Shown here: positions 44,425 to 63,366 of the stretch, piece after piece | Layout: every line of letters begins with the position of its first letter | Numbering within the stretch: position 1 is the first letter of the stretch | From: Pseudoalteromonas ulvae UL12 | GTDB lineage: Bacteria > Pseudomonadota > Gammaproteobacteria > Enterobacterales > Alteromonadaceae | Length of the DNA stretch: 64,000 bases | Direction of reading: 5' to 3' | Assembly: GCF_014925405.1 (NCBI RefSeq) | Contig: NZ_AQHJ01000021.1 | Span: forward strand, 1 to 64,000 | Program-made: the position numbers and the translations under genes | Notes under the pieces: model-generated | Database searches by the model: none | What the model saw: the letters and a program-made list of their open reading frames with translations, nothing else | What the model was told of the DNA's origin: nothing

Positions 44425-44469
44425 AATAATGATTTTGATAAACAGTAAATACGAGGCATTGGCCATCGT
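44425..44469 (+). promoter_or_regulatory. cassette leader 1: -10 box and bulged hairpin
   Basis: AATAAT at 44425-44430, then 20 nt, then hairpin ACGAGGCATTGGCCATCGT at 44451-44469 (ACGA/TCGT, GGC/GCC, loop ATTG, bulged A). The start codon follows 17 nt later with AGGTG between. Confidence 0.8.
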
Positions 44470-44486
44470 GAATATAGGTGAAAAAT

Positions 44487-44903
44487 ATGGAATCAAAATC
44501 ATTCTGCGAACAGGAGGTGTTGGCATTAATTGCTGATGCTGAAAATACGTTCTTATCTGAAGAATATGATCGCTTAAACGGTATGTGTGAGTCGTTCCTA
44601 AAGCCGCTTGATAGGTTGAGAAACGAAAGACTTTCAGATACTAGCGATTCATTGTTAAGAGTTAGTACTTATCTGAAAAAGTTGTCCTGTAACATTAATG
44701 GCCGAATCAAAGGCTTTAAAGGAAAGGATGAAGAGGCTTTTCAGCTTGGTAGCTGGTTTATGTTTTGGTGTGATAGTAAATCCGGAGAATTATCGACTGT
44801 TGGTCGGGTTAATCTCTTCCGATATTTGAACTCTAAAAGACAACCGGTAGAAATAACTAACAACGTGGTGGCGTTAGATGGTTGGAATAAAAAGGTCGCA
44901 TAG
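44487..44903 (+). CDS. cassette gene, hypothetical
   Basis: A 138-residue helical protein starting MESKSFCEQEVLALIADAENTFL, not recognised. ATG 44487 is chosen because AGGTG (44476-44480) is properly spaced and the conserved leader ends just before. Residues 85-110 (GKDEEAFQLGSWFMFWCDSKSGELSTVGR) contain two Trp and a Cys. A monocistronic cassette: leader 1 upstream, terminator overlapping its last codons. Function unknown; soluble. Confidence 0.65.
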   Translation: MESKSFCEQEVLALIADAENTFLSEEYDRLNGMCESFLKPLDRLRNERLSDTSDSLLRVSTYLKKLSCNINGRIKGFKGKDEEAFQLGSWFMFWCDSKSGELSTVGRVNLFRYLNSKRQPVEITNNVVALDGWNKKVA

Positions 44904-44914
44904 CGGCCTTTTTT
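44892..44914 (+). terminator. cassette terminator
   Basis: AAGGTCGC-ATA-GCGGCCTT stem plus T run; the same design recurs at 58678 and 59723. Confidence 0.88.
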
Positions 44915-44966
44915 ATTGGCTTAAATTATTTTTTGATAGATAAGGTTAGGTTGGCATTATATTGGG

Positions 44967-45012
44967 TAATATGATCCAGTTGAACGTAAATACGGGGCAA
45001 TTGGGCCATCGT
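44967..45012 (+). promoter_or_regulatory. cassette leader 2: divergent bulged hairpin
   Basis: TAATAT-like -10 at 44967-44972. The hairpin ACGGGGCAATTGGGCCATCGT at 44992-45012 keeps ACGG/TCGT (G-U wobble), GGC/GCC and the bulged A, with a six-base loop. Start codon GTG 45037 follows 24 nt later after AAGGTG. Confidence 0.65.
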
Positions 45013-45036
45013 GTTAATATTTATAAGGTGTTTAAT

Positions 45037-45381
45037 GTGAATGAATATAAAGAATGTCCTCGATGTCACTCTAGCGTCGAAGCGCGTGTAACTGTATGTG
45101 GTAACTGTAAAGCAGTGGAACACGTTGGATGGACTGATAAAGAGTTTGGGCTGTACAGAAATAAGGTTTGGGGCAGTATTGTATTGCTTTCAATCTTAGG
45201 CATGTTCTTTGTGCCATCTTACCTAAATAAAAACTTTGATCTGGAAATTGGTAATTTCTTCAGTATTGGGCCAATTGGCGTTTTGGTATTGGGTGCAGTC
45301 GCTTTTGCAATCGCACACATGGCAGCAAAATCAAAAGAAGCAAAGAATAGCAACCTGGTCAGATGGTTCTGGAATGAGTAG
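45037..45381 (+). CDS. zinc-ribbon membrane protein (cassette)
   Basis: A 114-residue protein. The N-terminal zinc ribbon is CPRCHSSVEARVTVCGNCKA (residues about 7-26, two CxxC knuckles). Two membrane helices follow (about 45-64, VWGSIVLLSILGMFFVPSYL; about 80-98, IGPIGVLVLGAVAFAIAHMA). GTG 45037 is chosen because AAGGTG (45025-45030) and the leader hairpin end upstream; earlier in-frame starts would place the hairpin inside the gene. Function unknown. Confidence 0.65.
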   Translation: MNEYKECPRCHSSVEARVTVCGNCKAVEHVGWTDKEFGLYRNKVWGSIVLLSILGMFFVPSYLNKNFDLEIGNFFSIGPIGVLVLGAVAFAIAHMAAKSKEAKNSNLVRWFWNE

Positions 45382-45403
45382 GTTTTCTACTTATTAATAA
45401 AAC

Positions 45404-45428
45404 AACCGGCTAATGCCGGTTTTTTTTA
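45404..45428 (+). terminator. cassette terminator
   Basis: AACCGGC-TAAT-GCCGGTT stem followed by T8; repeated in design at 46498 and 63769. Confidence 0.9.
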
Positions 45429-45460
45429 TGTATGTATCACTATTCAAAGAGCAGTAATGG

Positions 45461-45505
45461 CAAAATATGGAGGTTGATTAGTAAATACGAGGCATTGGCC
45501 ATCGT
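45461..45505 (+). promoter_or_regulatory. cassette leader 3: extended -10 and bulged hairpin
   Basis: TGG-CAAAAT (hexamer 45461-45466), 20 nt, hairpin ACGAGGCATTGGCCATCGT at 45487-45505, 17 nt to ATG 45523 with GAGGAA. Confidence 0.82.
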
Positions 45506-45522
45506 GAAATTGAGGAATAATT

Positions 45523-46491
45523 ATGACTTTGGATATGTTTGCTTGTAGTGATGACTCAGCAAAGTTAACAGTGTTATCTATGGGATTAGGGCAGGATAGT
45601 ACAGCGCTTCTTTATAAGTATGTTTATGATGAGCACTTTAAAAAGCAGTACGCACCAAATGATTTTTTGGTGATTTTTTCTGATACAGGGAACGAATTCC
45701 CCCAGACCTATGAACATTTAGAAAGCATTAAGATATTTTGTGAAACTCACGGTATTGAATTTGTTCATCTAATACCTGAGATGGGATATCACACTGGAGA
45801 TTGGCAATCTCTTGAGCACTTCTATGAAGTAAAAGAAGCTGTTGGATCAAAAGCCTACCCTAAAATTTGTAGTCAACGACTGAAAATTGAGCCTATTTAT
45901 CGTTATTTAGAAGATTATTTAGGTCAAAAATACGGTGTTAAAGTTGGTAAGAAAAAAGGGTTTCGACAATTTGCTGTTGAGTTCGGAAAAGTACAGATGA
46001 TGATCGGTATTGCAAAGAACGAAGAAAAGCGAATGAGTGATGCGGCTGATAGAAAAGAGCGCTGGTATCGTGAATCTATCGAACATATTTACCCTTTGGT
46101 TGATATGAACATGGATCGCAAAGGTTGTCAGACGTATATAAAGTCTGTTGGCCATAAGATACCAATTCCTAGTAACTGCATGATGTGTCCGTTTTTGTCT
46201 GAGGAAGAATTGGAGTATCTGCGTAGATTCGAACCTAAAGCTTTAGAAAATTGGATTTACTACGAAAAGCGTAAGCTTAATCGTTGGAGCCATTTAGAAG
46301 CTGTGCCGGTTAATAAAGGCACTGATGATGAACCGCGAATTGTATACGTCAATAAAAACCTGGGCGTATGGGGCAAACGTCGATTACCGGAAATGGTAAG
46401 TATCGTTCAAGAAAAGTTTAAAAACTGGACTGATGATATGATCATCGATTACCGAATGTCACATGGTCACTGTGTTGCTTCGGCATACTAA
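45523..46491 (+). CDS. PP-loop (PAPS-reductase-like) enzyme
   Basis: A 322-residue enzyme of the adenine nucleotide alpha-hydrolase / PAPS reductase superfamily. The PP-loop SMGLGQDSTALL (about 19-30) should bind ATP or PAPS-like nucleotide. FSDTGNEFPQTYEH (about 50-63) and CSQRLKIEPIYRYL (about 118-131) are family-like. The C-terminal SNCMMCPF (about 217-224) is a possible metal or Fe-S site. Plasmid and phage members are often found with DNA-modification or anti-defence genes; the substrate cannot be told from sequence. Monocistronic cassette with leader 3 and its own terminator. Confidence 0.78.
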   Translation: MTLDMFACSDDSAKLTVLSMGLGQDSTALLYKYVYDEHFKKQYAPNDFLVIFSDTGNEFPQTYEHLESIKIFCETHGIEFVHLIPEMGYHTGDWQSLEHFYEVKEAVGSKAYPKICSQRLKIEPIYRYLEDYLGQKYGVKVGKKKGFRQFAVEFGKVQMMIGIAKNEEKRMSDAADRKERWYRESIEHIYPLVDMNMDRKGCQTYIKSVGHKIPIPSNCMMCPFLSEEELEYLRRFEPKALENWIYYEKRKLNRWSHLEAVPVNKGTDDEPRIVYVNKNLGVWGKRRLPEMVSIVQEKFKNWTDDMIIDYRMSHGHCVASAY

Positions 46492-46497
46492 AAAAAT

Positions 46498-46520
46498 CCG
46501 GCATTAGCCGGTTTTTTTTT
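46498..46520 (+). terminator. cassette terminator
   Basis: CCGGC-ATTA-GCCGG stem with a T9 tract. Confidence 0.9.
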
Positions 46521-46550
46521 GCCCTCTCTCCTTAATGCTTATAAGCATGG

Positions 46551-46595
46551 CAAAATATAGAGGTTGATTAGTAAATACGAGGCATTGGCCATCGT
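46551..46595 (+). promoter_or_regulatory. cassette leader 4
   Basis: TGG-CAAAAT (46551-46556), 20 nt, hairpin ACGAGGCATTGGCCATCGT (46577-46595), 14 nt to ATG 46610 with AAGGAA. Confidence 0.82.
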
Positions 46596-46609
46596 GATAA
46601 GGAATAAAT

Positions 46610-47044
46610 ATGAAAAAGGTAGAGGTTTATCTTAACCGTAAAGCTATGGGTAAAAGTCCTAAGCGAATTTACTCTATTAGAGACACTATAACGGATACCG
46701 TTGTTGCTTCTAATAGTTGTGTTCTGCTTGAGAATGTTGAGCTTGTCGTTCAACCCAGCGGTCGTAGAGATACGTTATCGCGTATCGAGCGAGGTGCCAA
46801 AATAACGAAAACAGTTCATGCGTTCCTTCGTGGCAATATTGTCTATCGAGGAAGAAATGCTAAGAAAGTGAGTAAAGAACGAGGTTTATTTTGTGCCGGT
46901 AAAGCCGTTGGTTATGATCCGATTAAAACGGATTCATGGCTAGAGCTGAATGGGTTAAAAATGCCTGAAATTGTCGAAGGTCTTAAATCGATAACAAGAG
47001 CTAAATATGCTGTTTTGTTTGAAGATGGGATCTACGTTTTATAA
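46610..47044 (+). CDS. cassette gene with 'VHAF' family motif
   Basis: A 144-residue protein. The segment VYLNRKAMGKSPKRIYSIRD, LLENVELVVQPSGRRDTLSRIERGAKITKTVHAFLRGNIV is a conserved module also present in the 59239 gene (VRVYRNLNKPEFYSILAI, RQRVLREQRRNVHAFCEGYIV), so the two are paralogues. I recall similar short proteins in plasmids and phages without a known function. The rest, ITRAKYAVLFEDGIYVL, is beta-rich. Monocistronic, with leader 4 and a terminator overlapping the stop. Confidence 0.68.
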   Translation: MKKVEVYLNRKAMGKSPKRIYSIRDTITDTVVASNSCVLLENVELVVQPSGRRDTLSRIERGAKITKTVHAFLRGNIVYRGRNAKKVSKERGLFCAGKAVGYDPIKTDSWLELNGLKMPEIVEGLKSITRAKYAVLFEDGIYVL

Positions 47045-47066
47045 AAGCCCTTCTGGGCTTTTTTTA
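47044..47066 (+). terminator. cassette terminator
   Basis: AAAGCCC-TTCT-GGGCTTT followed by T; the stem begins at the stop codon of the preceding gene. Confidence 0.88.
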
Positions 47067-47098
47067 TTTTGAAGCAAATTCAGGGTTAATTATCACGA

Positions 47099-47143
47099 TA
47101 AACTAGAGTTGTAATTAAGTAATAACGAGGCACTGGCCATCGT
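47099..47143 (+). promoter_or_regulatory. cassette leader 5
   Basis: TAAACT (47099-47104), 20 nt, hairpin ACGAGGCACTGGCCATCGT (47125-47143; loop ACTG instead of ATTG, stems unchanged), 18 nt to ATG 47162 with GAGG. Confidence 0.8.
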
Positions 47144-47161
47144 GAAATTGAGGAAAATATT

Positions 47162-47467
47162 ATGCAAACTTTAGTTAATGTAGAAAAAATCGATCCTAGT
47201 ATTGCTGCTTGGATGGCTGCCCTTGAAGCTGACTTTGAATATGTTGAGTTACAAGAGCTATTTTCTGGTGAATTCGGAATTGCCTTTCAAGATGTATATT
47301 CTGTCATTACAGGAAATTTTCAACATTTAGATGATGTGTTATCTAAATGTTTATTAGCGAATGAACGTAGTGATGTAGATCATGTTATTAATACGCTTGC
47401 TGAAATAGGTGCAATAGAAACTGTTGGTGACTTTGTTGCGTTAGCACCAAGCAAAAACCTGTCGTAA
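47162..47467 (+). CDS. cassette gene, acidic hypothetical
   Basis: A 101-residue acidic helical protein beginning MQTLVNVEKIDPSIAAWMAALEADFEYVELQELFSGEF, not recognised. No signal, Cys or membrane helix. Small acidic proteins of this type can be DNA mimics, but no specific evidence is present. Monocistronic; leader 5 precedes it and its last codons lie in the terminator stem (47456-47475). Confidence 0.62.
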   Translation: MQTLVNVEKIDPSIAAWMAALEADFEYVELQELFSGEFGIAFQDVYSVITGNFQHLDDVLSKCLLANERSDVDHVINTLAEIGAIETVGDFVALAPSKNLS

Positions 47468-47484
47468 GACGGGTTTTTTTTTGC
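47456..47484 (+). terminator. cassette terminator
   Basis: AACCTGTC-GTAA-GACGGGTT stem (one wobble) followed by T9. Confidence 0.85.
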
Positions 47485-47511
47485 TTGTCACTTCTATGTT
47501 AAAGGAGCTGA

Positions 47512-47556
47512 TAAGCTAGAGGGGAATTTAAGTAGATACGAGGCATTGGCCATCGT
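47512..47556 (+). promoter_or_regulatory. cassette leader 6
   Basis: TAAGCT (47512-47517) preceded by TGA, 20 nt, hairpin ACGAGGCATTGGCCATCGT (47538-47556), 14 nt to ATG 47571 with TAGGAG. Confidence 0.8.
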
Positions 47557-47570
47557 GAATAGGAGTTAAT

Positions 47571-48020
47571 ATGAAACTGATTATGTGGACTAATGGTGAC
47601 AAGCTTATACGTGGCGCTGTCGTTGAAAGGCGAGAGAGTCGAAATAAGTATGCAGTAGACATCATACTTGAAGATGGACGTTGGTTTAACAACGCTCCGG
47701 AACGAGCGTTAATGCTTAACATTAATTGGATCCTTACTGATCAGGATGTTGATACTAATGAGGTAAATACCTGGTTAGAGCTAAGTAAAGTACGCGAACA
47801 GTATGTGTTTAGTGCGGTAGTAACACTTCAATCTAATGGTGAGAAGGCTGGTGTAAATATTTATCGTAGAGCACCGGTTATCAAAGCAAAGAATATTGAA
47901 GAGGCTGAGTTATCAATTCGTCGTCACTATGGCGATGATTGTGTCTTAGAAATATCAGATTTAAAATTATCTGACTGCCAAATCGGGCCTATCTGGTGCG
48001 ATACAATAGAAGCCTCTTAA
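47571..48020 (+). CDS. cassette gene, hypothetical
   Basis: A 149-residue protein, beta-rich at the start (MKLIMWTNGDKLIRGAVVERRESRNKYAVDIILEDGRWFNNA) and mixed later (IEEAELSIRRHYGDDCVLEISDLKL). Not recognised. It has leader 6 and a weak terminator at its end, after which another gene begins within 30 bases. No export signal. Confidence 0.62.
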   Translation: MKLIMWTNGDKLIRGAVVERRESRNKYAVDIILEDGRWFNNAPERALMLNINWILTDQDVDTNEVNTWLELSKVREQYVFSAVVTLQSNGEKAGVNIYRRAPVIKAKNIEEAELSIRRHYGDDCVLEISDLKLSDCQIGPIWCDTIEAS

Positions 48021-48032
48021 AGAGGCTTTTAT
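48010..48032 (+). terminator. weak terminator between cassette genes
   Basis: AAGCCTCT-TAA-AGAGGCTT followed by TTATTTTT; interrupted T tract, so some read-through into the 48049 gene is likely. Confidence 0.7.
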
Positions 48033-48048
48033 TTTTCGTGAGGTGTAA

Positions 48049-48333
48049 TTGATGGAGCAGAACGGACAAGCTGTAATTTTGTTTTCATTTAAAGTTCAGG
48101 GAGTGGATTTCGAACAGTACTGTTACTGTAAAGAAAATGACTTTGATGTTTATGGTGTACGGCTTGTAACAATGCCGGAAGTCATCAAAGGTGTTTCTGA
48201 TGATAAGTGGGAAGCTAAGGAAGATTTTAAGTTCAATTTGCTGCTTAGTAATAACAGCGAGTTACATTCTGCAGTTAGTAGTTCTACATGTAGAATTATC
48301 GAAAAAGAAGGCGGAACTATCGCCTTGAATTAA
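48049..48333 (+). CDS. cassette-associated hypothetical, carries palindrome copy 8
   Basis: A 94-residue protein (MEQNGQAVILFSFKVQGVDFEQYCYCKENDFDVYGVRL...), not recognised. It lacks a leader hairpin; GTGAGGTG upstream gives a ribosome site. It is probably read through from the previous cassette. ATG 48052 is an alternative start. The dispersed palindrome in its 3' part is read in a different frame here (STCRII) than in the other intragenic copies, showing that the constraint is on the DNA. Confidence 0.55.
   Translation: MMEQNGQAVILFSFKVQGVDFEQYCYCKENDFDVYGVRLVTMPEVIKGVSDDKWEAKEDFKFNLLLSNNSELHSAVSSSTCRIIEKEGGTIALN
48282..48295. repeat. dispersed palindrome TTCTACATGTAGAA, copy 8 (intragenic)
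   Basis: Perfect copy inside the 48049-48333 gene, about 130 bp before leader 7. Confidence 0.75.
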
Positions 48334-48369
48334 ATAATTATTATAACGATATACTGCCCCCAACCATTT

Positions 48370-48393
48370 ACCCCGCACTGCGGGGTTTTTTTT
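48370..48393 (+). terminator. cassette terminator
   Basis: ACCCCGC-ACT-GCGGGGT stem followed by T8. Confidence 0.9.
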
Positions 48394-48424
48394 ATTCAAC
48401 GGCTCTACAAATGCCTGTTTGTGG

Positions 48425-48469
48425 CAAAATAATCATGATTTTTAGTAAATACGAGGCATTGGCCATCGT
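48425..48469 (+). promoter_or_regulatory. cassette leader 7
   Basis: TGG-CAAAAT (48425-48430), 20 nt, hairpin ACGAGGCATTGGCCATCGT (48451-48469), 17 nt to ATG 48487 with AGGTG. Confidence 0.82.
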
Positions 48470-48486
48470 GAATAAAGGTGAAAAAT

Positions 48487-49602
48487 ATGAAAACATTAAA
48501 GCAAGCAGTAGAGTGTCTAACGTCTTTTGGTAATGCAGTAGACTTTAAAGGTTTGAAAAAACTGTATAAAAAAGCTGCGTTATTGGTGCATTCAGATCGA
48601 GCGAAAGAGCATGGTTGTTCTTACAATATGGTTGATTTGAATAATGCCTGGGGCATGATCAGCAATAACGTTGAATCAGCGTTGATGCTAATTGAAGGTA
48701 GTGAAGTTCTAGAAAAGGCTCGCGTTTTTGCGAACTCTTGGAAAGACGATCCTCTTCATGAAGCGTCAGTTCCAAGTTTTTACACTGTAGAAACTATGGC
48801 TAAGAAAGCTTGGAACATTGTTGAGGATGGTGAAGACGGTAACTTCGTCTGGTTTAATCCTAGTAAGCATGTTACTTACATTAAGGATTCTAATCTGGAG
48901 TATCGCTACTATTACGGTGGTGATGTTATCAGCTTTTATGATCTTGAAAACTCATTTAAAACGGGCAAAGAGTGTACCGGCTTTCGTGTATGCCATGACC
49001 GTTTAACTGATCGTAGTTTTATGGAGATTTGGAGTGAAATTCTGAATGAGTATTGCGAGACTCCAACACCCAAAGGTGTGTGGACTTGGCTTACAAGTTT
49101 AGAAATGGTTGATAATGGTCGTTATCACGGTAAATGCGCTGAAATTAAAGTGGGTGATAGTTCAGTACGGGTATATGAAGACAATGTATCCGGCAACAAA
49201 AACTTCTCGCCATTTGTGATTAATCGCGTTAAGCCAGTTGCATCGATGCCAAAAAAATGGACGGTAGTACAGCTTAGAAAAATATTGGCTAATGGTCAAT
49301 TTTCAAAGTATAAGCAGGACTACTATATGACCGATGATTATGCTGGAGATGCGGCAAGTAACTTTCGCAAAGGGTATTACCAAAATCCTCTTGATAGTTA
49401 TGCTGATATCCTTACGTGTAATCACATGCGGGTTTGGAGTAACCAAAATGAAGACGGTACAGTAGTTCTACATTTGGGTGCTCATAGCAATGACGGTCGC
49501 TCTTTAATTGTTGATTTAAATAATCGGTATCCAATAGTTGATATGGAAGCGGAAGAGGCTCAATACCTTACCGGTGATATAAAGCTTATAGATGCTGCCT
49601 AA
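48487..49602 (+). CDS. J-domain-like protein (cassette)
   Basis: A 371-residue protein. The N-terminal segment LKKLYKKAALLVHSDRAKEHGCSYNMVDLNNAWGMI (about 22-57) resembles a DnaJ J-domain, but the hallmark HPD is HSD (about 35-37). The remaining 300 residues have two repeated-looking blocks (VETMAKKAWNIVEDGEDGNFVWF, and later VVQLRKILANGQFSKY) and are not recognised. It might engage host DnaK or mimic a J-protein; loss of Pro in HPD normally impairs DnaK stimulation. Soluble. Monocistronic with leader 7 and terminator. Confidence 0.62.
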   Translation: MKTLKQAVECLTSFGNAVDFKGLKKLYKKAALLVHSDRAKEHGCSYNMVDLNNAWGMISNNVESALMLIEGSEVLEKARVFANSWKDDPLHEASVPSFYTVETMAKKAWNIVEDGEDGNFVWFNPSKHVTYIKDSNLEYRYYYGGDVISFYDLENSFKTGKECTGFRVCHDRLTDRSFMEIWSEILNEYCETPTPKGVWTWLTSLEMVDNGRYHGKCAEIKVGDSSVRVYEDNVSGNKNFSPFVINRVKPVASMPKKWTVVQLRKILANGQFSKYKQDYYMTDDYAGDAASNFRKGYYQNPLDSYADILTCNHMRVWSNQNEDGTVVLHLGAHSNDGRSLIVDLNNRYPIVDMEAEEAQYLTGDIKLIDAA

Positions 49603-49609
49603 AATAGAA

Positions 49610-49635
49610 AACCTCGCTTAGCGGGGTTTTTTTAT
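49610..49635 (+). terminator. cassette terminator
   Basis: AACCTCGC-TTA-GCGGGGTT followed by T7. Confidence 0.88.
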
Positions 49636-49665
49636 GTCTGTCGTAAAATTCATTGCGTTAAATGG

Positions 49666-49710
49666 TATATTGATCCGGATTTTAAGTAATAACGAGGCAT
49701 TGGCCATCGT
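49666..49710 (+). promoter_or_regulatory. cassette leader 8
   Basis: TGG-TATATT (49666-49671), 20 nt, hairpin ACGAGGCATTGGCCATCGT (49692-49710), 18 nt to ATG 49729 with GAGGAA. Confidence 0.82.
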
Positions 49711-51746: not shown

Positions 51747-51791
51747 TATACTTATTAAGAATTTTAGAAAGAGCGAAGCATAGGCTATCGC
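51747..51791 (+). promoter_or_regulatory. cassette leader 9 (GCGA class)
   Basis: TGT-TATACT (51747-51752), 20 nt, hairpin GCGAAGCATAGGCTATCGC (51773-51791): GCGA/TCGC and AGC/GCT, loop ATAG, bulged A retained. Then 17 nt to ATG 51809 with TTGGAG. First copy with both stems changed in a compensatory way. Confidence 0.82.
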
Positions 51792-55874: not shown

Positions 55875-55939
55875 GAGTTATCCATCATGCAGCCACTACA
55901 GACCGGAGGAACAATCTGTCGTGGCAATTGTGGGTAACT
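55875..55939. repeat. 65-bp hairpin-forming direct repeat, copy A
   Basis: Begins GAGTTATCCATCATGC and ends GGCAATTGTGGGTAACT; matches 63182-63246 at 62 of 65 positions in the same orientation. Outer arms GAGTTATCCA/TGGGTAACT(C) and inner arms CCACTACAGA/TCTGTCGTGG fold into a long hairpin with CCGGAGGAA in the loop. It sits 7 bp past the stop codon of a tyrosine recombinase, so an att or recombination site is one possibility, a single-strand signal another. Confidence 0.8.
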
Positions 55940-55946: not shown

Positions 55947-56645
55947 TCACCTAAATTTAACCCCGTCTAATAAAAACGCCATATCAATATCCAAAAGCTG
56001 CATGTAGATCAGTGTGGACTCGATACGCTTATGGCCCATTAAGCGCTGAATTAAAAATACATCCCGCCGATGCAGTACCAGGTTACAGGCGAATGAGTGC
56101 CTTAATACATGGGCGCTGGTTGGCATTAAATTCAATTTGTCTGCAGTCGAACGAATGGCATTATCAAAAGCTTGCCGAGAACAAGGAATAAAGAGGGGCG
56201 TTTCTCTTGATCGACCTGGCATTGTATCGATGCGTCTTTTAAGTGTCAGTGCATAATCATGATCACGAATGGGAATGTCTCGGGTTCTATCTATATCGGT
56301 GGCTTTGGGTTTACCCCGTTGTTTTAATGTCCGCAGCGTCACAATGGCCCGTTGTTCGCCACGTTCTTCATAAAAGGTCAGTGCTTGTTTTTTGATGGCC
56401 AGTGCTTCAGAAATTCTTGCACCGGTGCGCCAGATAAATTCGGCTCTGGCAAAATGCTCCCCACTCATTGCATCGAGTAATTTATTCACTTCCGGAAGCA
56501 ATAAGTAATTAGGTAGATTTTTCTCGGTGATCAGGGTTTGACGATATTGTTGGTGAAAGTGCCAATCAATACCGTCATCGAGGGTGAGGCTCGGTCGATG
56601 AGGTTCCTCGTATTGATGTAATGCTAAAGCGTGATCTGTTTGCAT
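55947..56645 (-). CDS. short tyrosine recombinase
   Basis: A 232-residue tyrosine recombinase with all catalytic positions: R77 (TGARISEAL), H179 and R182 (HVLRHSFA), H205 (GHKR), Y214 (YMQLL). Only about 45 residues precede the catalytic domain, so the core-binding domain is much reduced or absent. The DNA looks more GC-rich than neighbouring genes, suggesting separate acquisition. The stop is 7 bp from one copy of the 65-bp direct repeat, the other copy being 7.3 kb away. It may act on these repeats. Confidence 0.88.
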   Translation of the reverse strand: MQTDHALALHQYEEPHRPSLTLDDGIDWHFHQQYRQTLITEKNLPNYLLLPEVNKLLDAMSGEHFARAEFIWRTGARISEALAIKKQALTFYEERGEQRAIVTLRTLKQRGKPKATDIDRTRDIPIRDHDYALTLKRRIDTMPGRSRETPLFIPCSRQAFDNAIRSTADKLNLMPTSAHVLRHSFACNLVLHRRDVFLIQRLMGHKRIESTLIYMQLLDIDMAFLLDGVKFR

Positions 56646-56897: not shown

Positions 56898-56942
56898 TAT
56901 AGTAAATATGAATGTATGTAAAAACGAGGCATTGGCCATCGT
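56898..56942 (+). promoter_or_regulatory. cassette leader 10 (ACGA class)
   Basis: TATAGT (56898-56903), 20 nt, hairpin ACGAGGCATTGGCCATCGT (56924-56942), 17 nt to ATG 56960 with AGGAG. Confidence 0.8.
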
Positions 56943-57575: not shown

Positions 57576-57580
57576 AAAAT

Positions 57581-57634: not shown

Positions 57635-57679
57635 TATAGTTATCTTGATTATTAGCAAAAGCGAAGCATAGGCTATCGC
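57635..57679 (+). promoter_or_regulatory. cassette leader 11 (GCGA class)
   Basis: Extended -10 TGG-TATAGT (57635-57640), 20 nt, hairpin GCGAAGCATAGGCTATCGC (57661-57679), 16 nt to ATG 57696 with AAGGAA. Confidence 0.82.
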
Positions 57680-58091: not shown

Positions 58092-58121
58092 TGACAGATG
58101 AATACAGATTCACTAAAAAAT

Positions 58122-58146
58122 GCCGCTCTATAGCGGCTTTTTTTTG
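58122..58146 (+). terminator. cassette terminator
   Basis: GCCGCT-CTAT-AGCGGC followed by T9. Confidence 0.9.
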
Positions 58147-58174
58147 CTTAATCTAAAGTCTATTAAGTAAGTGG

Positions 58175-58219
58175 TATAGTTAGTTTGATTTTTAACAAAA
58201 GCGAAGCTGCAGCTATCGC
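58175..58219 (+). promoter_or_regulatory. cassette leader 12 (GCGA class)
   Basis: Extended -10 TGG-TATAGT (58175-58180), 20 nt, hairpin GCGAAGCTGCAGCTATCGC (58201-58219; loop TGCA), 18 nt to ATG 58238. Confidence 0.82.
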
Positions 58220-58237
58220 GCATAAAAGGTTTGTACT

Positions 58238-58669
58238 ATGGAAAACTCAAGTAAAGTTATTACAGAATTGAAACTGGGCCGTAACATTCATCAAATTACA
58301 AAAGCTGATCGTTTTTTAGATAACGGCTTATGTGTTCAACTTTTAAAGGCTAAGCCTATGAAGGTTAGGTATGGTGAAAAAGATACGATGACATTAAAGG
58401 AAGGTGATTTGGAGCATCTTGCTAAGTTTGGCCAAATTACTCATGGCCATCATGAGTATCGAGGCTGTAAAGTGTTTAGCTTAGTTCATCCGGAAGAAAA
58501 ATTTTACGTGATGGGTTATTGTAACCAGGTTGATATCGATAATAAGGAAGGTCGCTTTTTAGGAGCTGAAGGTTATTATCATAATGCTCGTAAAACAAAA
58601 AATGAAAATGTTAACAGCTTTTTTGCTGTAAAGATTTTCGATTCAGATATGGAAGAAGTCAATTATTAG
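58238..58669 (+). CDS. cassette gene, hypothetical
   Basis: A 143-residue protein (MENSSKVITELKLGRNIHQITKADRFLDNGLCVQLLKAKPMKVRYGEKDTMTLKEGDLEHLAKFG...) with several His (GQITHGHHEYRGC). Not recognised. Ribosome site AAAGG is spaced 9-10 bases from ATG 58238. Monocistronic with leader 12 and terminator. Confidence 0.62.
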   Translation: MENSSKVITELKLGRNIHQITKADRFLDNGLCVQLLKAKPMKVRYGEKDTMTLKEGDLEHLAKFGQITHGHHEYRGCKVFSLVHPEEKFYVMGYCNQVDIDNKEGRFLGAEGYYHNARKTKNENVNSFFAVKIFDSDMEEVNY

Positions 58670-58677
58670 GATATAAA

Positions 58678-58702
58678 AAGGTCGCTTAGCGGCCTTTTTT
58701 AT
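58678..58702 (+). terminator. cassette terminator
   Basis: AAGGTCGC-TTA-GCGGCCTT followed by T. Confidence 0.9.
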
Positions 58703-58732
58703 TTTTACTTAAAAATTCAGCCAATAGGCTGG

Positions 58733-58779
58733 TATATTTAGTGTTGAAATATTAGCAAAAGCGAAGCATTAGCTATCGC
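58733..58779 (+). promoter_or_regulatory. cassette leader 13 (GCGA class)
   Basis: TGG-TATATT (58733-58738), 22 nt, hairpin GCGAAGCATTAGCTATCGC (58761-58779; loop ATTA), 16 nt to ATG 58796 with AGGAAG. Confidence 0.82.
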
Positions 58780-58795
58780 ATATAGGAAGATTATT

Positions 58796-59164
58796 ATGAA
58801 ATTTGCAACGCAAAAATGTTTAGACGGTGAAACCCTTATTGTCGGCCCAGGTTTATTAAGTCAAGAAGTAAAAATGGTTGTTACACTTCTGTCAAAATGT
58901 CGATTTAGTGATGTTGACGATATTTTGTGTGCTTCTAATGCTGTTGATGAAGAGATCTGGTCTTTAATATGTGAAAGGGATCGTAAAGTCATCTACTCGA
59001 TAATTGCCAATACGTACAGTATTTATATTGATGATATTGATAAATTTATCGATATTCTTTGCAGTGATGGCATTGAGCTTTGTTTTGACGATGGTACCTT
59101 TATTCCAGATGGTGAATATCTGTTAGGTTTAGAGAACACGATTGTTAAGAATAAGGTCGCGTAA
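58796..59164 (+). CDS. cassette gene, acidic hypothetical
   Basis: A 122-residue acidic protein (MKFATQKCLDGETLIVGPGLLSQEVKMVVTLLSKCRFSDVDDILCASNAVDEEIW...). Repeating DD/ED patches (IDDIDKFIDILCSDGIELCFDDG). Not recognised. First gene of a two-gene cassette; the intergenic segment to the next gene folds into alternative hairpins. Confidence 0.62.
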   Translation: MKFATQKCLDGETLIVGPGLLSQEVKMVVTLLSKCRFSDVDDILCASNAVDEEIWSLICERDRKVIYSIIANTYSIYIDDIDKFIDILCSDGIELCFDDGTFIPDGEYLLGLENTIVKNKVA

Positions 59165-59232
59165 AGTAGTTAAAACGCCCTTGGGGAAAATGTTCCCCTG
59201 TAGGGTCATTTCCCTGCATTCTATTAAGAGGA
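59165..59232 (+). promoter_or_regulatory. intercistronic alternative hairpins
   Basis: GGGGAA-AATG-TTCCCC (59183-59198) is a perfect stem. AGGG at 59202-59205 can pair either with CCCT 59178-59181, extending that stem, or with CCCT 59212-59215 downstream. No T tract follows, so this is not a simple terminator; it may tune expression of the second gene. Confidence 0.4.
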
Positions 59233-59238
59233 AATGTG

Positions 59239-59709
59239 ATGTCTACGGAGTCAAATGGACTAAAAGAGTCTATGTTTGTCGATGGTGCTTTTGAATCTAA
59301 AGTTGGTAAAGTAACTAGGATTTGCAAGCATTTGATGAGGGTTAGAGTGTATCGAAACCTTAATAAGCCTGAGTTTTATTCTATTCTAGCTATTGAAGGT
59401 GAAAATAAGGGAAAGGTAATTGGATATGCTCGTTCTGTCTTGATTAAAGATTGTAAGTTTAAGGTAAGTGAAGCGTCGAGGCAAAGAGTTCTTAGAGAGC
59501 AGCGTCGAAACGTACATGCTTTCTGTGAAGGCTATATCGTTGATGCGTCTGAGTCGGCCCAGTCTCTAAAAGGTGATGAGATAGTGATTACATATAATCC
59601 TTACAAGTTACCTACCTTTTATAAAAGGTCTGACGAAACTGCTCAAACTGACAACTGTGCTCAAGCGCTCCTCCAGGGAAGTGATGTGCATATCATTGAT
59701 AACATTTAA
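59239..59709 (+). CDS. 'VHAF'-family protein, paralogue of the 46610 gene
   Basis: A 156-residue protein. The segment MRVRVYRNLNKPEFYSILAIEGENKGKVIGYARSVLIKDCKFKVSEASRQRVLREQRRNVHAFCEGYIV (about 35-102) corresponds to the module in the 46610 gene. The extra N-terminal 35 residues and the longer C-terminal tail differ. ATG 59239 follows AGAGGA. Second gene of a cassette; function unknown. Confidence 0.65.
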   Translation: MSTESNGLKESMFVDGAFESKVGKVTRICKHLMRVRVYRNLNKPEFYSILAIEGENKGKVIGYARSVLIKDCKFKVSEASRQRVLREQRRNVHAFCEGYIVDASESAQSLKGDEIVITYNPYKLPTFYKRSDETAQTDNCAQALLQGSDVHIIDNI

Positions 59710-59722
59710 GGTTGTATTCAAT

Positions 59723-59748
59723 AAGGTCGCTTTGCGGCCTTTTTTTTT
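59723..59748 (+). terminator. cassette terminator
   Basis: AAGGTCGC-TTT-GCGGCCTT followed by T9. Confidence 0.9.
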
Positions 59749-59776
59749 GGTTTAAAAAAAGATTCGGAGAAAGTGT

Positions 59777-59821
59777 TAAAATTACCGTGATTTTTAACAA
59801 CAGCGAAGCAATAGCTATCGC
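59777..59821 (+). promoter_or_regulatory. cassette leader 14 (GCGA class)
   Basis: TGT-TAAAAT (59777-59782), 20 nt, hairpin GCGAAGCAATAGCTATCGC (59803-59821; loop AATA), 16 nt to ATG 59838 with TAGGT. Confidence 0.82.
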
Positions 59822-59837
59822 GTATTAGGTAAATAAT

Positions 59838-60167
59838 ATGAGTAATGAAAAACACTATTTAATTACAACAGAATTTAGAATTGGCGAAATAGTTGAATCT
59901 ATCACAAGAGTTTGTAAATCGGCTATGCGGCCTGAAGCGTGTCAAGCTGAAGTTGCTCAAGGTATGAATTGTGGTAGCTTTGATAAGGATATGTATAGTA
60001 GACCATGTTTCGATATTGATGGCTTTATTACATACCCTTCGTCTATCAAAGAGATAGATGAAAGCACATTTGATCTATTGATGTCACATATTGAGTTCTA
60101 TCCTTTAGAACAAAACGAAAGTGAGTTAAGTCAAGATGTAAAAGAGTTTTTAGAAGCAACGGTATGA
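59838..60167 (+). CDS. cassette gene, hypothetical
   Basis: A 109-residue protein (MSNEKHYLITTEFRIGEIVESITRVCKSAMRPEACQAEVAQGMNCGSFDKDMYSRPCF...). Four Cys in the central part may bind metal but without a clear knuckle pattern. Acidic C terminus. Not recognised. Monocistronic with leader 14 and terminator. Confidence 0.62.
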   Translation: MSNEKHYLITTEFRIGEIVESITRVCKSAMRPEACQAEVAQGMNCGSFDKDMYSRPCFDIDGFITYPSSIKEIDESTFDLLMSHIEFYPLEQNESELSQDVKEFLEATV

Positions 60168-60185
60168 TGACTTTTACTTACATTA

Positions 60186-60212
60186 AAAAGTACCTTTCTG
60201 GTGCTTTTTTTT
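60186..60212 (+). terminator. cassette terminator
   Basis: AAAGTACC-TTTCT-GGTGCTTT stem (one mismatch) followed by T. Confidence 0.85.
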
Positions 60213-60242
60213 TACGTGAAGAATATGAAAACCATTACGATG

Positions 60243-60287
60243 TATAGTTAACATGACTTTTAACAAAAGCGAAGCAGAAGCTATCGC
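60243..60287 (+). promoter_or_regulatory. cassette leader 15 (GCGA class)
   Basis: TATAGT (60243-60248), 20 nt, hairpin GCGAAGCAGAAGCTATCGC (60269-60287; loop AGAA), 19 nt to ATG 60307 with AAGGAAA. Confidence 0.82.
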
Positions 60288-60306
60288 GTATAAGGAAAAT
60301 ATAACA

Positions 60307-60633
60307 ATGTATCCTAAAAATGTATCTGGATTCTCAATCACTATGGTAGAGATTATTTCAGCAAATATATCTGGACAAGTAATTGGCCATTCACAATTAT
60401 CTTCAGGCTCTGATTGGCTTGGTAGCTTTATCTGTGATGTGTTAGATGGTATCGATGCAAGCGATATTAAGCTTTCAGTACTTGACCGACTGTTGGAGAA
60501 AAATAGTCCTGAACTTAAAGGTTACATTTATACGTTGTATAAAGAAACTGTTGATTTCAGGCCTACAATGCGATTGATTGAAGCTTCTGAAGCTAGGGCA
60601 TGTGATCCAGATTTTTTGGCACAACAATTCTAA
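60307..60633 (+). CDS. cassette gene, hypothetical
   Basis: A 108-residue protein (MYPKNVSGFSITMVEIISANISGQVIGHSQLSSGSDWLGSFICDVLDGIDASDIKLSVLDRLLE...). Not recognised; helical C-terminal half. ATG 60307 is chosen because the leader hairpin and AAGGAAA come just before; the upstream ATG at 60253 would translate through the hairpin. Monocistronic. Confidence 0.62.
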   Translation: MYPKNVSGFSITMVEIISANISGQVIGHSQLSSGSDWLGSFICDVLDGIDASDIKLSVLDRLLEKNSPELKGYIYTLYKETVDFRPTMRLIEASEARACDPDFLAQQF

Positions 60634-60666
60634 GAACGATATTCGGCGTAGCCGATATCTACAGTA

Positions 60667-60695
60667 AAAGGTACCTTTAGGTGCCTTTTTTTTGG
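60667..60695 (+). terminator. cassette terminator
   Basis: AAAGGTACC-TTTA-GGTGCCTTT stem followed by T. Confidence 0.88.
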
Positions 60696-60749
60696 GCGTA
60701 ATATATTCGTTATAAGCTGTTAAAATTCTTTTAGCGAAATATGGAGGTA

Positions 60750-61460
60750 ATGTTGGGTAAAAAGCAAAAACTAAGATACTCATTAAAAAGAATGTTGAGC
60801 TATAACGGTGCTGGTTTTTCTAACCTTGTTAGGGATAAAGATAGAATAATAGACTTTATTGTTGATACGCTTTTAGAAGGAGGGTATAGAGGAATGTCAC
60901 CTTATTCAATTAAACCGAAGCATATTAAATATATGACAACAAAGTGGAGAGAAGAAAAAATAGGTGAAAGTCAATTTTCTGATGCCATGCGATTAGTTTA
61001 TTGGTGGGTTGTTTTGGTAGGAAAAACAAACATCTTAGTAGAGTATAAACAATATTGTTTAACCATATATTGCTGCAAATGTGAAATAGATGTTGAAGCT
61101 AGGCTAACTAATGGCCGTGAAATTTATCCACATAGCAAAGGGGTATCTAATTTACCGTTTTGGATTTGTGATGGTTGTAGTAATTATGTAGGGTGTCATC
61201 ACAAAACTAAAACTAGAATAAAGCCTTTGGGTCACATTCCTTCTAAAGAGTTACGCAACGCACGTAAACATATTCATATCTTATTAGACCCAATATGGAA
61301 AGACGGGTTAGTGAGTAGAAGTCAAATTTATGCGGATTTAAGTAAAGAGTTGGGATGGTCATTTCATATAGCATTAATAAGAAGTATTGAAGAAGCACGA
61401 AATGTTTATAGAGTTATTAGAACAATGAAACATAAATACATAACTAAAGGGGTGCCTTGA
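60750..61460 (+). CDS. integrase-N-like domain fused to DUF3268-type zinc finger
   Basis: About 236 residues. The N-terminal 95 (LVRDKDRIIDFIVDTLLEGGYRGMSPYSIKPKHIKYMTTKW...SQFSDAMRLVYWWVVLVGK) resembles the SAM-like N domain of phage tyrosine integrases. No catalytic domain follows. Instead comes a zinc module, IYCCKCEIDVEARLTNGREIYPHSKGVSNLPFWICDGCSNYVGCHH, then PLGHIPSKELRNARKHIHILLDPIWKDGLVSRSQIYADLSKELG, the DUF3268 signature. A DNA-binding accessory role is inferred. The start is unclear: ATG 60741, ATG 60750 or TTG 60753; GGAGG at 60743-60747 favours the later ones. Confidence 0.7.
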   Translation: MLGKKQKLRYSLKRMLSYNGAGFSNLVRDKDRIIDFIVDTLLEGGYRGMSPYSIKPKHIKYMTTKWREEKIGESQFSDAMRLVYWWVVLVGKTNILVEYKQYCLTIYCCKCEIDVEARLTNGREIYPHSKGVSNLPFWICDGCSNYVGCHHKTKTRIKPLGHIPSKELRNARKHIHILLDPIWKDGLVSRSQIYADLSKELGWSFHIALIRSIEEARNVYRVIRTMKHKYITKGVP

Positions 61461-61468
61461 TTAACTAC

Positions 61469-61502
61469 AAGATATCCACAAATTTTGTGGATATCTTTAT
61501 TT
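61469..61502. terminator. bidirectional terminator between convergent genes
   Basis: AAGATATCCACAAA and TTTGTGGATATCTT form a 14-bp near-perfect stem with A and T tracts on either side, between the plus-strand zinc-finger gene and the minus-strand recombinase gene. Confidence 0.85.
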
Positions 61503-62452
61503 TACCTTAAATATACACCGGTTATCGAAGCCCTGAAGTGTCCCAGTTCTTGAGAGACTATTAACTTAGCTTGTTTATCCGAATAGCCTTTACCTGTTAA
61601 GTGTGCCATTCTGGATTGAGCGTACTGGTGACGCAAACCATGTGCGCCATTACTCATGCCTAATGCTCTTTTGCTTGCAGTTGAGAATGATTTTGAAAAT
61701 GAGTTTCCACCACCAATGTCATAGTGGGATGTATATTTAACCTTACGATCCATTATTTCAACTGGGGTTTCATATCGCCTTGCTTCAAGCTCTTTCGCTA
61801 AATCAGACGGTATTCTTATTTCGCGTACTAGCCCTCCCTTCCCTGCTACTACATACCTTTCACCATCTAAGCCATTAAAGCGCTCTTTACTCCACTGCCT
61901 ATTTGATGTGATTTGTAATTCGTCAGCTTTTCTTATTTGCAATAATTCGTGAGCACGTAAACCTGCAGCATGAGCTATTTTTGTTGCCAAAGCATTACGT
62001 GTAGTTTGAGCTTCAGATATTGCTTTAACCTGAAAGTCAGTATATGACCTAGATTTTGCAGCATTGGATGCTGCTGAATATACTCTAGCAATTGGTAATC
62101 CCAGTAGTATAGAGAGCGCTTTGCGCTCAGCGTCCAAAGTTTTTTGGGTCAAAAGCCTTTGGTTAGATCTATCCTTAATTTCTACATGTAGAACATTTTG
62201 CCCTGCTCGTTCGGCTTCTCTTCTTGAAATTAAAAATTCTTGAGCTTCTTCTATATTAATATGCTTTAACCGTGATACACCCATAGACTCGGCAATCCTA
62301 GCCAATGTCGAAGCTGATTCTTTATAGCTTCTCATCGAAGTAAATTGCTTGTATGGTGTTTTACCAATATTTCCAACATTGGATTTAGATTTACCCATAG
62401 CCAAATGTTTTTTCAGTAGAGCTTCAGATTGCTCAAGTAGTGATTTAGCCAT
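61502..62452 (-). CDS. tyrosine recombinase / integrase
   Basis: A 316-residue tyrosine recombinase with R166 (HAAGLRAHEL), K205 (GKGGLVREI), H271 and R274 (HGLRHQYA), H305 (ELGHFRA) and Y314 close to the C terminus (TGVYLR). The N-terminal half is a core-binding region. It is transcribed with the 96-residue protein upstream, overlapping it by 8 bases. It may resolve plasmid multimers or integrate the element; the folded GC-rich palindrome behind it is a candidate site. A perfect dispersed palindrome (62180-62193) lies inside the gene and encodes LHVE. Confidence 0.88.
   Translation of the reverse strand: MAKSLLEQSEALLKKHLAMGKSKSNVGNIGKTPYKQFTSMRSYKESASTLARIAESMGVSRLKHINIEEAQEFLISRREAERAGQNVLHVEIKDRSNQRLLTQKTLDAERKALSILLGLPIARVYSAASNAAKSRSYTDFQVKAISEAQTTRNALATKIAHAAGLRAHELLQIRKADELQITSNRQWSKERFNGLDGERYVVAGKGGLVREIRIPSDLAKELEARRYETPVEIMDRKVKYTSHYDIGGGNSFSKSFSTASKRALGMSNGAHGLRHQYAQSRMAHLTGKGYSDKQAKLIVSQELGHFRASITGVYLR
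62180..62193. repeat. dispersed palindrome TTCTACATGTAGAA, copy 9 (inside recombinase gene)
   Basis: Perfect copy in the coding sequence of the minus-strand recombinase. Confidence 0.75.
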
Positions 62453-62735
62453 TTATACCTATCTCTTTATCTACAGTATCAAGGTGCTTTTTTGTGAATT
62501 GTTGCACTGCTTGTTTAGTTACTCTTATACGTTTGTTTTGGCGTAGCCAAAGAGCAATATCGGCATAGCTTGCTTCTTCAACCATGCGCAAATATAGAAT
62601 GTCGTTAAGATAACGATTGAGTCTGCTTGAGCTTAGTCGTCTTCTTTTTCTACGACGCTTAATGTCATCAATTTGCGTTTCAAGCAATTCATACCGTTCG
62701 ATTCCTGCTTGTTTTTTATCTTTGTCACTGGTCAT
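62445..62735 (-). CDS. small helix-turn-helix protein upstream of recombinase
   Basis: A 96-residue basic protein (KRRRKRRRLSSSRLNRYLNDILYLRMVEEASYADIALWLRQNKRIRVTKQAVQQFTKKHL). The SYADIALWLRQNKRIRVTKQAVQQF stretch (about 56-80) looks like a helix-turn-helix. Its stop overlaps the recombinase start, implying co-translation. It could be a directionality factor or repressor for the recombinase. Similar HTH-recombinase pairs occur in mobile elements; no specific family named. Confidence 0.65.
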   Translation of the reverse strand: MTSDKDKKQAGIERYELLETQIDDIKRRRKRRRLSSSRLNRYLNDILYLRMVEEASYADIALWLRQNKRIRVTKQAVQQFTKKHLDTVDKEIGING

Positions 62736-62830
62736 TTTTTTCTGTTTTGAACTTCAAAAAGTTTTAAAATTGTCATAGATCATATCAAAAAATTTGCTCA
62801 AAAAAGGCGTCAAGATAAAACGTAAAGCAA

Positions 62831-62953
62831 ATTTGTCTGGGGGCCAACGGTAGCGCGCGCTCTAGGTGAGTGTGAAACGCTCACCTAGAGCGCGCGCGCC
62901 CTACGACACAATTGCTTGTGATGTGTCGGAGGGGCCGTGGCCCCCAGGCAAAT
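62831..62953. repeat. nested three-stem palindrome (cruciform)
   Basis: Outer arms 62831-62845 and 62939-62953 (CTGGGGGCC/GGCCCCCAG core, one wobble over 15 bp). Inner arm 1: 62853-62870 with 62880-62897, 18 bp perfect, 9-base loop. Inner arm 2: CGACACA 62904-62910 with TGTGTCG 62922-62928. Much more GC-rich than the rest of the window. In single-stranded DNA this would form a stable three-way structure. Confidence 0.8.
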
Positions 62954-63181
62954 GTTGAGGCGCTGAAAGCCCGAGCAATTTGACTTTAGAGGGGGAGTGA
63001 AACGACCACCATTACCCCGCCGCGACTTTGGAGCGGTGGCAAAAATAGGCTTTGCTTGTGATGTGACATAGCTAGATCGTCAGATCATTTTAATATCGAT
63101 TTAGATCAAAAGTTCGAATAATTTTTTTGTTGTCATGTGTTGAAATCGAAGTAGCACGATAGTCGTTCAAGTTCGAATATT

Positions 63182-63246
63182 GAGTTATCCATCATGCGCC
63201 CACTACAGACCGGAGGAATAATCTGTCGTGGCAATTGTGGGTAACT
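63182..63246. repeat. 65-bp hairpin-forming direct repeat, copy B
   Basis: Same orientation as copy A at 55875-55939, with three mismatches. Together they bracket 7.3 kb that includes cassette leaders 10-15, the zinc-finger protein and the second recombinase. Confidence 0.8.
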
Positions 63247-63250
63247 CTGC

Positions 63251-63264
63251 TTCTACATGTAGAA
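63251..63264. repeat. dispersed palindrome TTCTACATGTAGAA, copy 10
   Basis: Perfect copy 5 bp after copy B of the 65-bp repeat and about 130 bp upstream of the DUF3577-like gene. Confidence 0.75.
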
Positions 63265-63320
63265 TACAAAGCTGGATAGATTAAATATTTTTAGTCCCCC
63301 TTTATTCAAAAATAGATAGG

Positions 63321-63366
63321 TATACTGTTTGTGATTGTTAAGTAATAACGAAATTTTGATTATCGT
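63321..63366 (+). promoter_or_regulatory. cassette leader 16 (AAT/ATT class)
   Basis: TATACT (63321-63326), 21 nt, hairpin ACGAAATTTTGATTATCGT (63348-63366): ACGA/TCGT and AAT/ATT, loop TTTG, bulged A. A third stem-2 variant with compensating changes. 15 nt to ATG 63382 with GAGGAA. Confidence 0.8.

Follow-up and report, generated by a model that had tools for sequence, protein, structure and literature searches.

The array of bulged hairpins

The stretch analysed here, referred to as the window, comprises bases 1-64000 of a 70,467-base contig of Pseudoalteromonas ulvae UL12 (NZ_AQHJ01000021.1), and the subject of this work is a small bulged hairpin located in the leaders of sixteen of its genes. 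The contig shows matches to Rep3, TraD, TraC, TraG and TraT and, as judged by this gene content, is a plasmid of the conjugative type. A preliminary description made from the nucleotide sequence had reported sixteen hairpins, and all of them were found where they had been placed (nt, nucleotides; aa, amino acids):

44451..44469, plus strand: bulged hairpin ACGA-GGC-ATTG-GCC-A-TCGT, 17 nt to ATG 44487
44992..45012, plus strand: bulged hairpin ACGG-GGC-AATTGG-GCC-A-TCGT with a 6-nt loop, 24 nt to GTG 45037 (gene with a zinc-ribbon match below the cut-off)
45487..45505, plus strand: bulged hairpin, gene start ATG 45523, PAPS-reductase domain protein
46577..46595, plus strand: bulged hairpin, gene start ATG 46610, phage L5 gp82-like family
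47125..47143, plus strand: bulged hairpin, loop ACTG, gene start ATG 47162
47538..47556, plus strand: bulged hairpin, gene start ATG 47571
48451..48469, plus strand: bulged hairpin, gene start ATG 48487, product of 371 aa lacking a Pfam match
49692..49710, plus strand: bulged hairpin, gene start ATG 49729, DUF3560 protein
51773..51791, plus strand: bulged hairpin GCGA-AGC-ATAG-GCT-A-TCGC, gene start ATG 51809
56924..56942, plus strand: bulged hairpin, gene start ATG 56960
57661..57679, plus strand: bulged hairpin, gene start ATG 57696, extended -10 box TGGTATAGT ending 20 nt upstream
58201..58219, plus strand: bulged hairpin, loop TGCA, gene start ATG 58238
58761..58779, plus strand: bulged hairpin, loop ATTA, gene start ATG 58796
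59803..59821, plus strand: bulged hairpin, loop AATA, gene start ATG 59838
60269..60287, plus strand: bulged hairpin, loop AGAA, gene start ATG 60307
63348..63366, plus strand: bulged hairpin ACGA-AAT-TTTG-ATT-A-TCGT, gene start ATG 63382

The common architecture of 19 nt that had been described holds for fifteen of the sixteen sites, which consist of an outer stem of 4 base pairs (bp), an inner stem of 3 bp, a 4-nt loop and a bulged A on the 3' side, whereas the site at 44992 measures 21 nt. The spacing to the start codon, 14-19 nt in fifteen cases and 24 nt in the case of GTG 45037, is as reported. The location of all sites on the same strand is true within the window but not for the contig, which carries a minus-strand site at 69596; further sites past the window were found at 69652, 69915 and 66200, the last being a copy of the site at 63348 within a duplicated stretch. 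Among the sixteen window sites every pair forms, four of the seven pairs show changes on both sides, and the covariation score was matched by 0 of 500 shuffles, which bears out the earlier claim that compensatory changes imply selection on structure. Between positions 44201 and 63400, 15 matches with Watson-Crick pairs only were counted, as compared with a mean of 0.6 and a maximum of 3 in 30 order-1 Markov shuffles; when G-U pairs were permitted the excess shrank to 24 versus 9.2 expected. The element is real and structured, and a search with the Rfam 15 families gave 0 matches at gathering score in the 64-kb window.

Occurrence on related plasmids

As the preliminary description had proposed, a covariance model (R1) was built from the sixteen sites, and running it led to a second plasmid with a cluster of the element. 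Among 394 genomes of the order, clusters were detected only in the window genome (17) and in Alteromonas indica IO390401 (G259; 10, all on one contig, PYVY01000020.1, of 73,583 bases), and one other genome gave a single weak match. A search of PLSDB with TraD identified plasmid pKD03 of A. macleodii (NZ_CP147981.1). A second model (R2), built from 54 sites (alignment A2) of three plasmids, led to contig 21 of G677, 75,060 bases long and, according to its database name, probably from Alteromonas sp. KUL42. The backbone proteins are collinear on the four plasmids, with identities of about 22% to 79%. For two loci of the KUL42 plasmid no Rfam match was obtained at gathering score, and a lax threshold gave only matches far below gathering.

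When R2 was employed to scan the family, 126 of 295 genomes contained a match at E<=0.05, and the number per genome was 1 to 4 except for G000 (11), G259 (22) and G677 (14). No element clusters outside the plasmid lineage were found in 394, 295, 394 and 369 sampled genomes, the samples overlapping and the filters being strict. Single R2 matches in other genomes (L083-L095, L101-L104) were judged by eye to be coding sequence, terminators or chance, and two hairpin patterns searched for in viral contigs gave one match each, which on reading looked like coding sequence. No matches were obtained in PLSDB with 19.7 kb in a search for near-identical DNA or with the 63382 product in a protein search, nor in viral contigs with the PAPS-reductase protein. 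For the first 50 kb each of Vibrio p123 and Microbulbifer pTHAF38_a and for Erwinia pEB102 (42 kb), there was no match with an E value below 0.13. Within the one library searched, no description of the element was found in the literature.

Covariation and sequence constraint

In alignment A2, which omits 11 of 65 sites that are near-identical or imperfect, including minus-strand sites at 72868 of the A. indica plasmid and at 6956 of pKD03, five of the seven pairs show double changes. A larger alignment (A7) consists of the 82 R2 matches at E<=0.05 on the four plasmids, 79 of them distinct, and here six of the seven pairs are doubly changed. Doubly changed cells numbered 78 as compared with 16.2 in shuffles, and the covariation score of 0.465 was matched in 0 of 500 shuffles, slid controls giving 0.01-0.13. 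None of the 82 matches (0) is located inside transfer blocks, and the weakest of them (L072, minus strand) is probably due to chance.

A curated set of 85 sites contains the outer stems GCGA/TCGC (62), ACGA/TCGT (15), TCGT/ACGA (2), GTGA/TCAC (2) and four single variants. The inner stem occurs in 17 forms and the loop, 3-9 nt long, in 65, the commonest loops being ATTG, ATTGT, AATTG and TTTGT. The bulged A that had been called invariant is so in the sixteen window sites but not throughout the curated set, where the bulged base is A in 75 sites, G in 5, T in 3 and C in 2; the base directly 5' of the stem is A in 75 of the 85. The sites in the curated set and in the 54-row alignment A2 had been chosen for pairing and mostly also for the C-G core of the outer stem, so that their 100% pairing and part of the outer-stem conservation are there by construction, and the curated sites outside the window had been gathered under the rule that the bulge lies on the 3' strand. 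Because pairing and C-G core had been criteria in this way, two further analyses were performed, one on leaders picked by gene orthology and one by a scan blind to sequence.

Leaders from ten gene families displayed the hairpin in 28 of 34 cases, seven families being complete, as compared with 161 of 4000 random transfer-region windows evaluated with the same lax criteria. The set of admissible outer stems was derived from the data themselves, and one inner mismatch was tolerated; one family was searched over 150 nt and the others over 55, all null windows being of 55 nt, and the start coordinate at A. indica 66099 is slightly off. The six misses are the leader of window gene 59239, the two orthologues of which have the hairpin, and all five members of two families. 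In the case of the former (window 59170-59238, the leader of a second gp82-like gene), nested stems are apparent by eye in the place of the bulged hairpin of the orthologues, and one of them seems to pair with the Shine-Dalgarno region.

The blind scan read each of the four plasmids in the direction of its transfer genes, admitted any outer stem and any bulged base with Watson-Crick pairs, and also required a start codon with a Shine-Dalgarno-like run 13-19 nt downstream. It returned 62 leader matches outside the transfer and replication blocks versus 2 inside, although these blocks are longer. In 55 of the 62 the outer stem was GCGA/TCGC (37), ACGA/TCGT (15), TCGT/ACGA (2) or GTGA/TCAC (1), and this bias points to a sequence-specific reading of the outer stem. 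With G-U pairs the scan was noisy (158 outside versus 115 inside).

Position of the hairpin in the leader

Within the interval 8-44 nt upstream of the hairpin, the hexamer most similar to a -10 box ends 17-21 nt upstream of it in 63 of 84 sites, the modal distance being 18 on pKD03 and the A. indica plasmid, 19 on the KUL42 plasmid and 20 on the window plasmid. On the downstream side, the independent annotation of pKD03 lists a start no more than 170 nt away for 14 plus-strand sites, and in 12 of them this start codon is 13-19 nt from the hairpin (23 and 69 nt in the other two; five more sites have none). In 73 of the 81 plasmid sites with a start found by rule, the gap has a mean of 17.1 and a standard deviation of 2.3, some of the starts in long KUL42 leaders being possibly false. 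Predicted folding of 73 leaders gave a median pair probability of 0.97 with a few values below 0.4, and the median unpaired probability of the Shine-Dalgarno sequence was 0.58 versus 0.50 in the leaders of 24 open reading frames of the transfer region.

Two adjacent genes present the element in different settings on all four plasmids. The gene for a small Cys-rich protein has its hairpin 15 nt upstream of the ATG and within the end of the preceding frame, where a -10 box at the usual distance is absent and where residues of the overlapping frame have changed while the pairing has been kept. The preceding gene, which encodes a small membrane-type protein, has in its leader (L021 5771-5880 and orthologues) a hairpin at the usual distance from the promoter that is located 105-112 nt from the ATG, with a second long stem in between. 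From these two cases the element appears to be a leader module able to act both beside the ribosome site and at a distance. Long leaders (L072 14196, 14875, 17710, 18325 and 18746, and 50638 of the A. indica plasmid in reverse-strand numbering) have a second RNA module in common past the hairpin, for which alternative stems can be drawn by eye, one closing the Shine-Dalgarno sequence and one resembling an intrinsic terminator with a U run.

The covariation on four plasmids, the orthologous leaders, the excess in the blind scan, the fixed spacing to promoter and start codon, and the retention of the hairpin where an overlapping protein has changed all agree with the initial proposal of an RNA element that acts in cis close to the ribosome site. 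The RNA element itself is well supported: its structure is under selection, its position in the leader is regular, and it is used throughout the plasmid.

The hairpin in TraG genomic islands

Three genomes of the genus of the window host, G024, G025 and G035 (contigs of 388 kb, 3.7 Mb and 33 kb), contain a small region with an integrase, a DUF2857-like gene and a homologue of the TraG N-terminal part, the identity to plasmid TraG being 45%, 43% and 38%, respectively. The hairpin is present upstream of the integrase and of the traG block in all three, and in G024 and G025 a third one precedes a small gene and a tyrosine recombinase; at the third site of G025 one outer pair is broken (ACGA/TCGC). 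In the traG leaders, two islands have GGC/GCC as the inner stem and one has GAC/GTC, with pairing kept, and the integrase leaders are about 280-430 nt long. The islands were located at L074 3300-13000, L125 5300-12400 and L126 1200-6200. Candidate hairpins were also seen upstream of a related integrase in G623 and G482; none was found at two loci with a distant TraG (G1101, G014), and a search for direct repeats bounding the G024 island was negative. The window plasmid encodes a relative of an island protein:

8353..9321, plus strand: protein with a sub-threshold DUF2857 match, relatives of which (22-35% identity) occur in the hairpin-bearing TraG islands

These islands look like helper-dependent satellites of the plasmid family. 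The AcaCD regulon of IncA/C plasmids is common to the plasmid and the island SGI1, AcaCD being an activator that reads a DNA motif at promoters (PMC4542580). As in that system, one recognition element is used by a conjugative plasmid and by an island with traG and int, a combination found in G024, G025 and G035; unlike the promoter DNA motif read by AcaCD, the shared element here is a hairpin in the RNA, located past the -10 box.

Candidate partner proteins

In the control region, proteins of 377-389 aa, basic proteins of about 80-96 aa, the family of the 63382 product, a small protein that matches MobC weakly and an integrase are kept on all four plasmids. The protein of 377-389 aa, its length counted from the ATG that follows the hairpin, is preceded by a hairpin of its own 18-19 nt upstream of that ATG on 4/4 plasmids, with one inner mismatch in A. 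indica, and R2 reports two of the four. One such gene lies at 68388-69557 of contig C20. When 5.8 billion proteins were searched, 14 relatives were recovered, the longest contig measuring 75.2 kb. Its predicted structure (mean pLDDT 73.7) has several helical units of the helix-turn-helix (HTH) kind, three by our reading, and matches to solved structures, among them AcrIF24 and Xre-type controllers, are weak in structure and sequence. Because of its own hairpin on every plasmid, its relatives on contigs no longer than 75.2 kb and the predicted HTH units, this protein is ranked first as the possible binder of the hairpin, a tentative choice that is perhaps correct but more doubtful than not. A homologue was not found in island genomes G024, G482 and G623, none was found in viral contigs, and in PLSDB it was found on pKD03 only. 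A second candidate partner is the following protein:

62445..62735, minus strand: small basic helical protein with an RKKRR-like stretch and HTH-like helices, kept on all four plasmids

NusG, CsrA and FinO/ProQ were rejected as plasmid partners. G000, G259 and G677 each contain one copy of NusG on another contig, and CsrA and a FinO-domain protein are likewise present in three genomes as one copy each on other contigs; pKD03 has none of these proteins.

Other features of the window plasmid

A repeat of about 62 bp (GTTATCCATCATGC...TGTGGGTAAC) at 55877-55938 and 63184-63245 flanks 7 kb of the window and occurs again at contig position 66036; a tyrosine recombinase gene (55947-56645, minus strand) is next to the first copy. 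About 2.85 kb of the contig, including the hairpin at 63348, are directly duplicated: the stretch from about 62900 to 64000 of the window and over L021 1-1873 is found again at L021 1874-4720, and the duplication may be either real or an artefact of assembly. At the end of the contig (L021 6200-6567) there is an array of direct repeats of about 50 bp that seems to run on at window position 1, which perhaps represents replication iterons of a circular plasmid. The protein encoded at 60741-61460, the gene of which is without the hairpin, combines a DUF3268 zinc-finger with an N-terminal phage-integrase SAM-like domain.

Comparison with known systems

The preliminary description had likened the hairpin to the coat-protein operators of RNA phages, a comparison that stands for size but not for bulge side and loop. 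Like operators of the MS2 type, which act on translation as is proposed here, the element is about 19 nt long, has 7 bp, a single bulged A and a small loop, and lies near a start codon. The phage operator has its bulged A on the 5' strand and a conserved 4-nt loop ANYA, and it spans the start codon; here the bulge is on the 3' strand in the sixteen window sites, the loops, in 65 versions of 3-9 nt, are free in length and sequence with no conserved ANYA, the hairpin is located upstream of the Shine-Dalgarno sequence, and there are 15-27 sites per plasmid. An identity with this class was rejected. The attC sites of integrons, which are long imperfect palindromes with R and L boxes, were rejected as well, as the hairpin has 7 bp only and core-site boxes are absent by eye in the aligned sites.

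The arrangement resembles the post-transcriptional regulons defined by target hairpins of CsrA/Rsm and FinO/ProQ, but a plasmid copy of either protein is lacking and, unlike CsrA targets with GGA in the hairpin loop, the loops here have no conserved GGA. Aca2, an HTH protein of phage ZF40, reportedly represses at the DNA and RNA level and binds leader RNA. An HTH regulator acting autogenously through leader stem-loops near the ribosome site would be similar, and on 4/4 plasmids the candidate protein, whose HTH nature is a matter of prediction and weak matches, is indeed encoded behind its own hairpin; it differs from Aca2 in that one candidate with three HTH-like units would have many targets. 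LoaP is a NusG paralogue that reads a dfn hairpin with a UNCG-type loop (PMC12691694); there too a leader hairpin is recognised as RNA and acts on distal genes, but the loops described here vary freely without a UNCG type, and the plasmids have no NusG paralogue.

Interpretation

It is proposed that the hairpin serves as an RNA operator, recognised by a protein of the plasmid and acting on translation, a proposal that in our estimation stands at about even. The operator would consist of the nearly fixed 4-bp outer stem, a single nucleotide bulged on the 3' side and an inner stem of 3 bp whose sequence is free, and would be placed in the 5' leader about 12 nt past the expected transcription start, mostly 13-19 nt ahead of the start codon. 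Binding of the hairpin by a protein is likely; a trans-acting protein encoded by the plasmid would recognise outer stem and bulge and would control ribosome loading on some 15-27 plasmid genes together. Among these genes would be that of the protein with three HTH-like units, the likeliest binder, and as this gene bears the hairpin, the system would be autoregulated. Because the hairpin itself does not sequester the Shine-Dalgarno sequence, the default state would be 'on' and binding would repress translation, so that repression is the likelier sign of control; plasmid genes would then fire on entry into a fresh cell and be damped afterwards.

A passive function, in which a 5' hairpin shields the mRNA or holds the ribosome site open and has no partner of its own, would agree with the proximity to the expected 5' end, with the folding predicted in most of the 73 leaders (although not in the few below 0.4) and with Shine-Dalgarno regions slightly more open than in controls. 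Such a function, and with it the pure role in mRNA stability that had been considered at the outset, is nevertheless unlikely, because not only the pairing but also the sequence of the outer stem is conserved, even in the scan that does not require it; moreover, clusters occur in this plasmid lineage only among the sampled genomes, and the same hairpin is present in the matching leaders of TraG islands. Antitermination, in which a nascent hairpin near +12 would load a factor on RNA polymerase and cause readthrough of leader attenuators and intergenic terminators, has in its favor that the -10-like box is 17-21 nt upstream in 63 of 84 sites, long leaders included, that several long leaders have terminator-like or Shine-Dalgarno-closing stems downstream as seen by eye, that the island integrase leaders reach about 280-430 nt, and that Bacillus LoaP reads a leader hairpin in this way (PMC12691694). 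It is, however, also unlikely, as a NusG paralogue is absent from the four plasmid contigs, as the site of the Cys-rich gene is internal to an operon and 15 nt ahead of the ATG on 4/4 plasmids, and as short leaders are too tight for a terminator between hairpin and gene.

A chromosomal protein or RNase of the host could read the hairpin in the place of a plasmid protein, in line with the failure to find the HTH candidate in island genome G024 and with the CsrA and ProQ that the hosts carry on other contigs; we regard this as very unlikely, since the scans of sampled genomes, with their overlap and strict filters, showed no clusters outside the plasmids and hence no visible host regulon. Action at the DNA level, be it as a duplex operator, as a folded attC-like recombination site or as a single-strand promoter in transfer, is suggested by features that recall integrons, namely the array of genes on the same strand, the imperfect hairpin with an extrahelical base and the conserved tyrosine recombinase, and by the conjugative gene content of the plasmids. 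Against it, a loop of 3-9 nt breaks the fixed phase of half-sites in duplex DNA, the stems are far shorter than those of attC, and the spacing to -10 box and start codon points to expression, so that a site of this type is scarcely to be expected.

A more specific form of the RNA-operator proposal, that the plasmid HTH protein reads the hairpin in 15-27 leaders including its own and that the traG islands sense the helper plasmid through the same RNA operator, is put forward tentatively, as possible rather than probable. If true, it would be an RNA counterpart of the AcaCD/SGI1 circuit with its DNA motif. Coordinated control of plasmid genes is usually credited to DNA-binding activators and repressors, and an RNA operator common to dozens of leaders would give a mobile element another means of running a regulon. 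The same element in TraG islands would show a satellite eavesdropping on its helper through RNA, and the element, tiny and unlike the motifs with which it was compared, could be put to use as an operator in synthetic control as soon as its partner is known.

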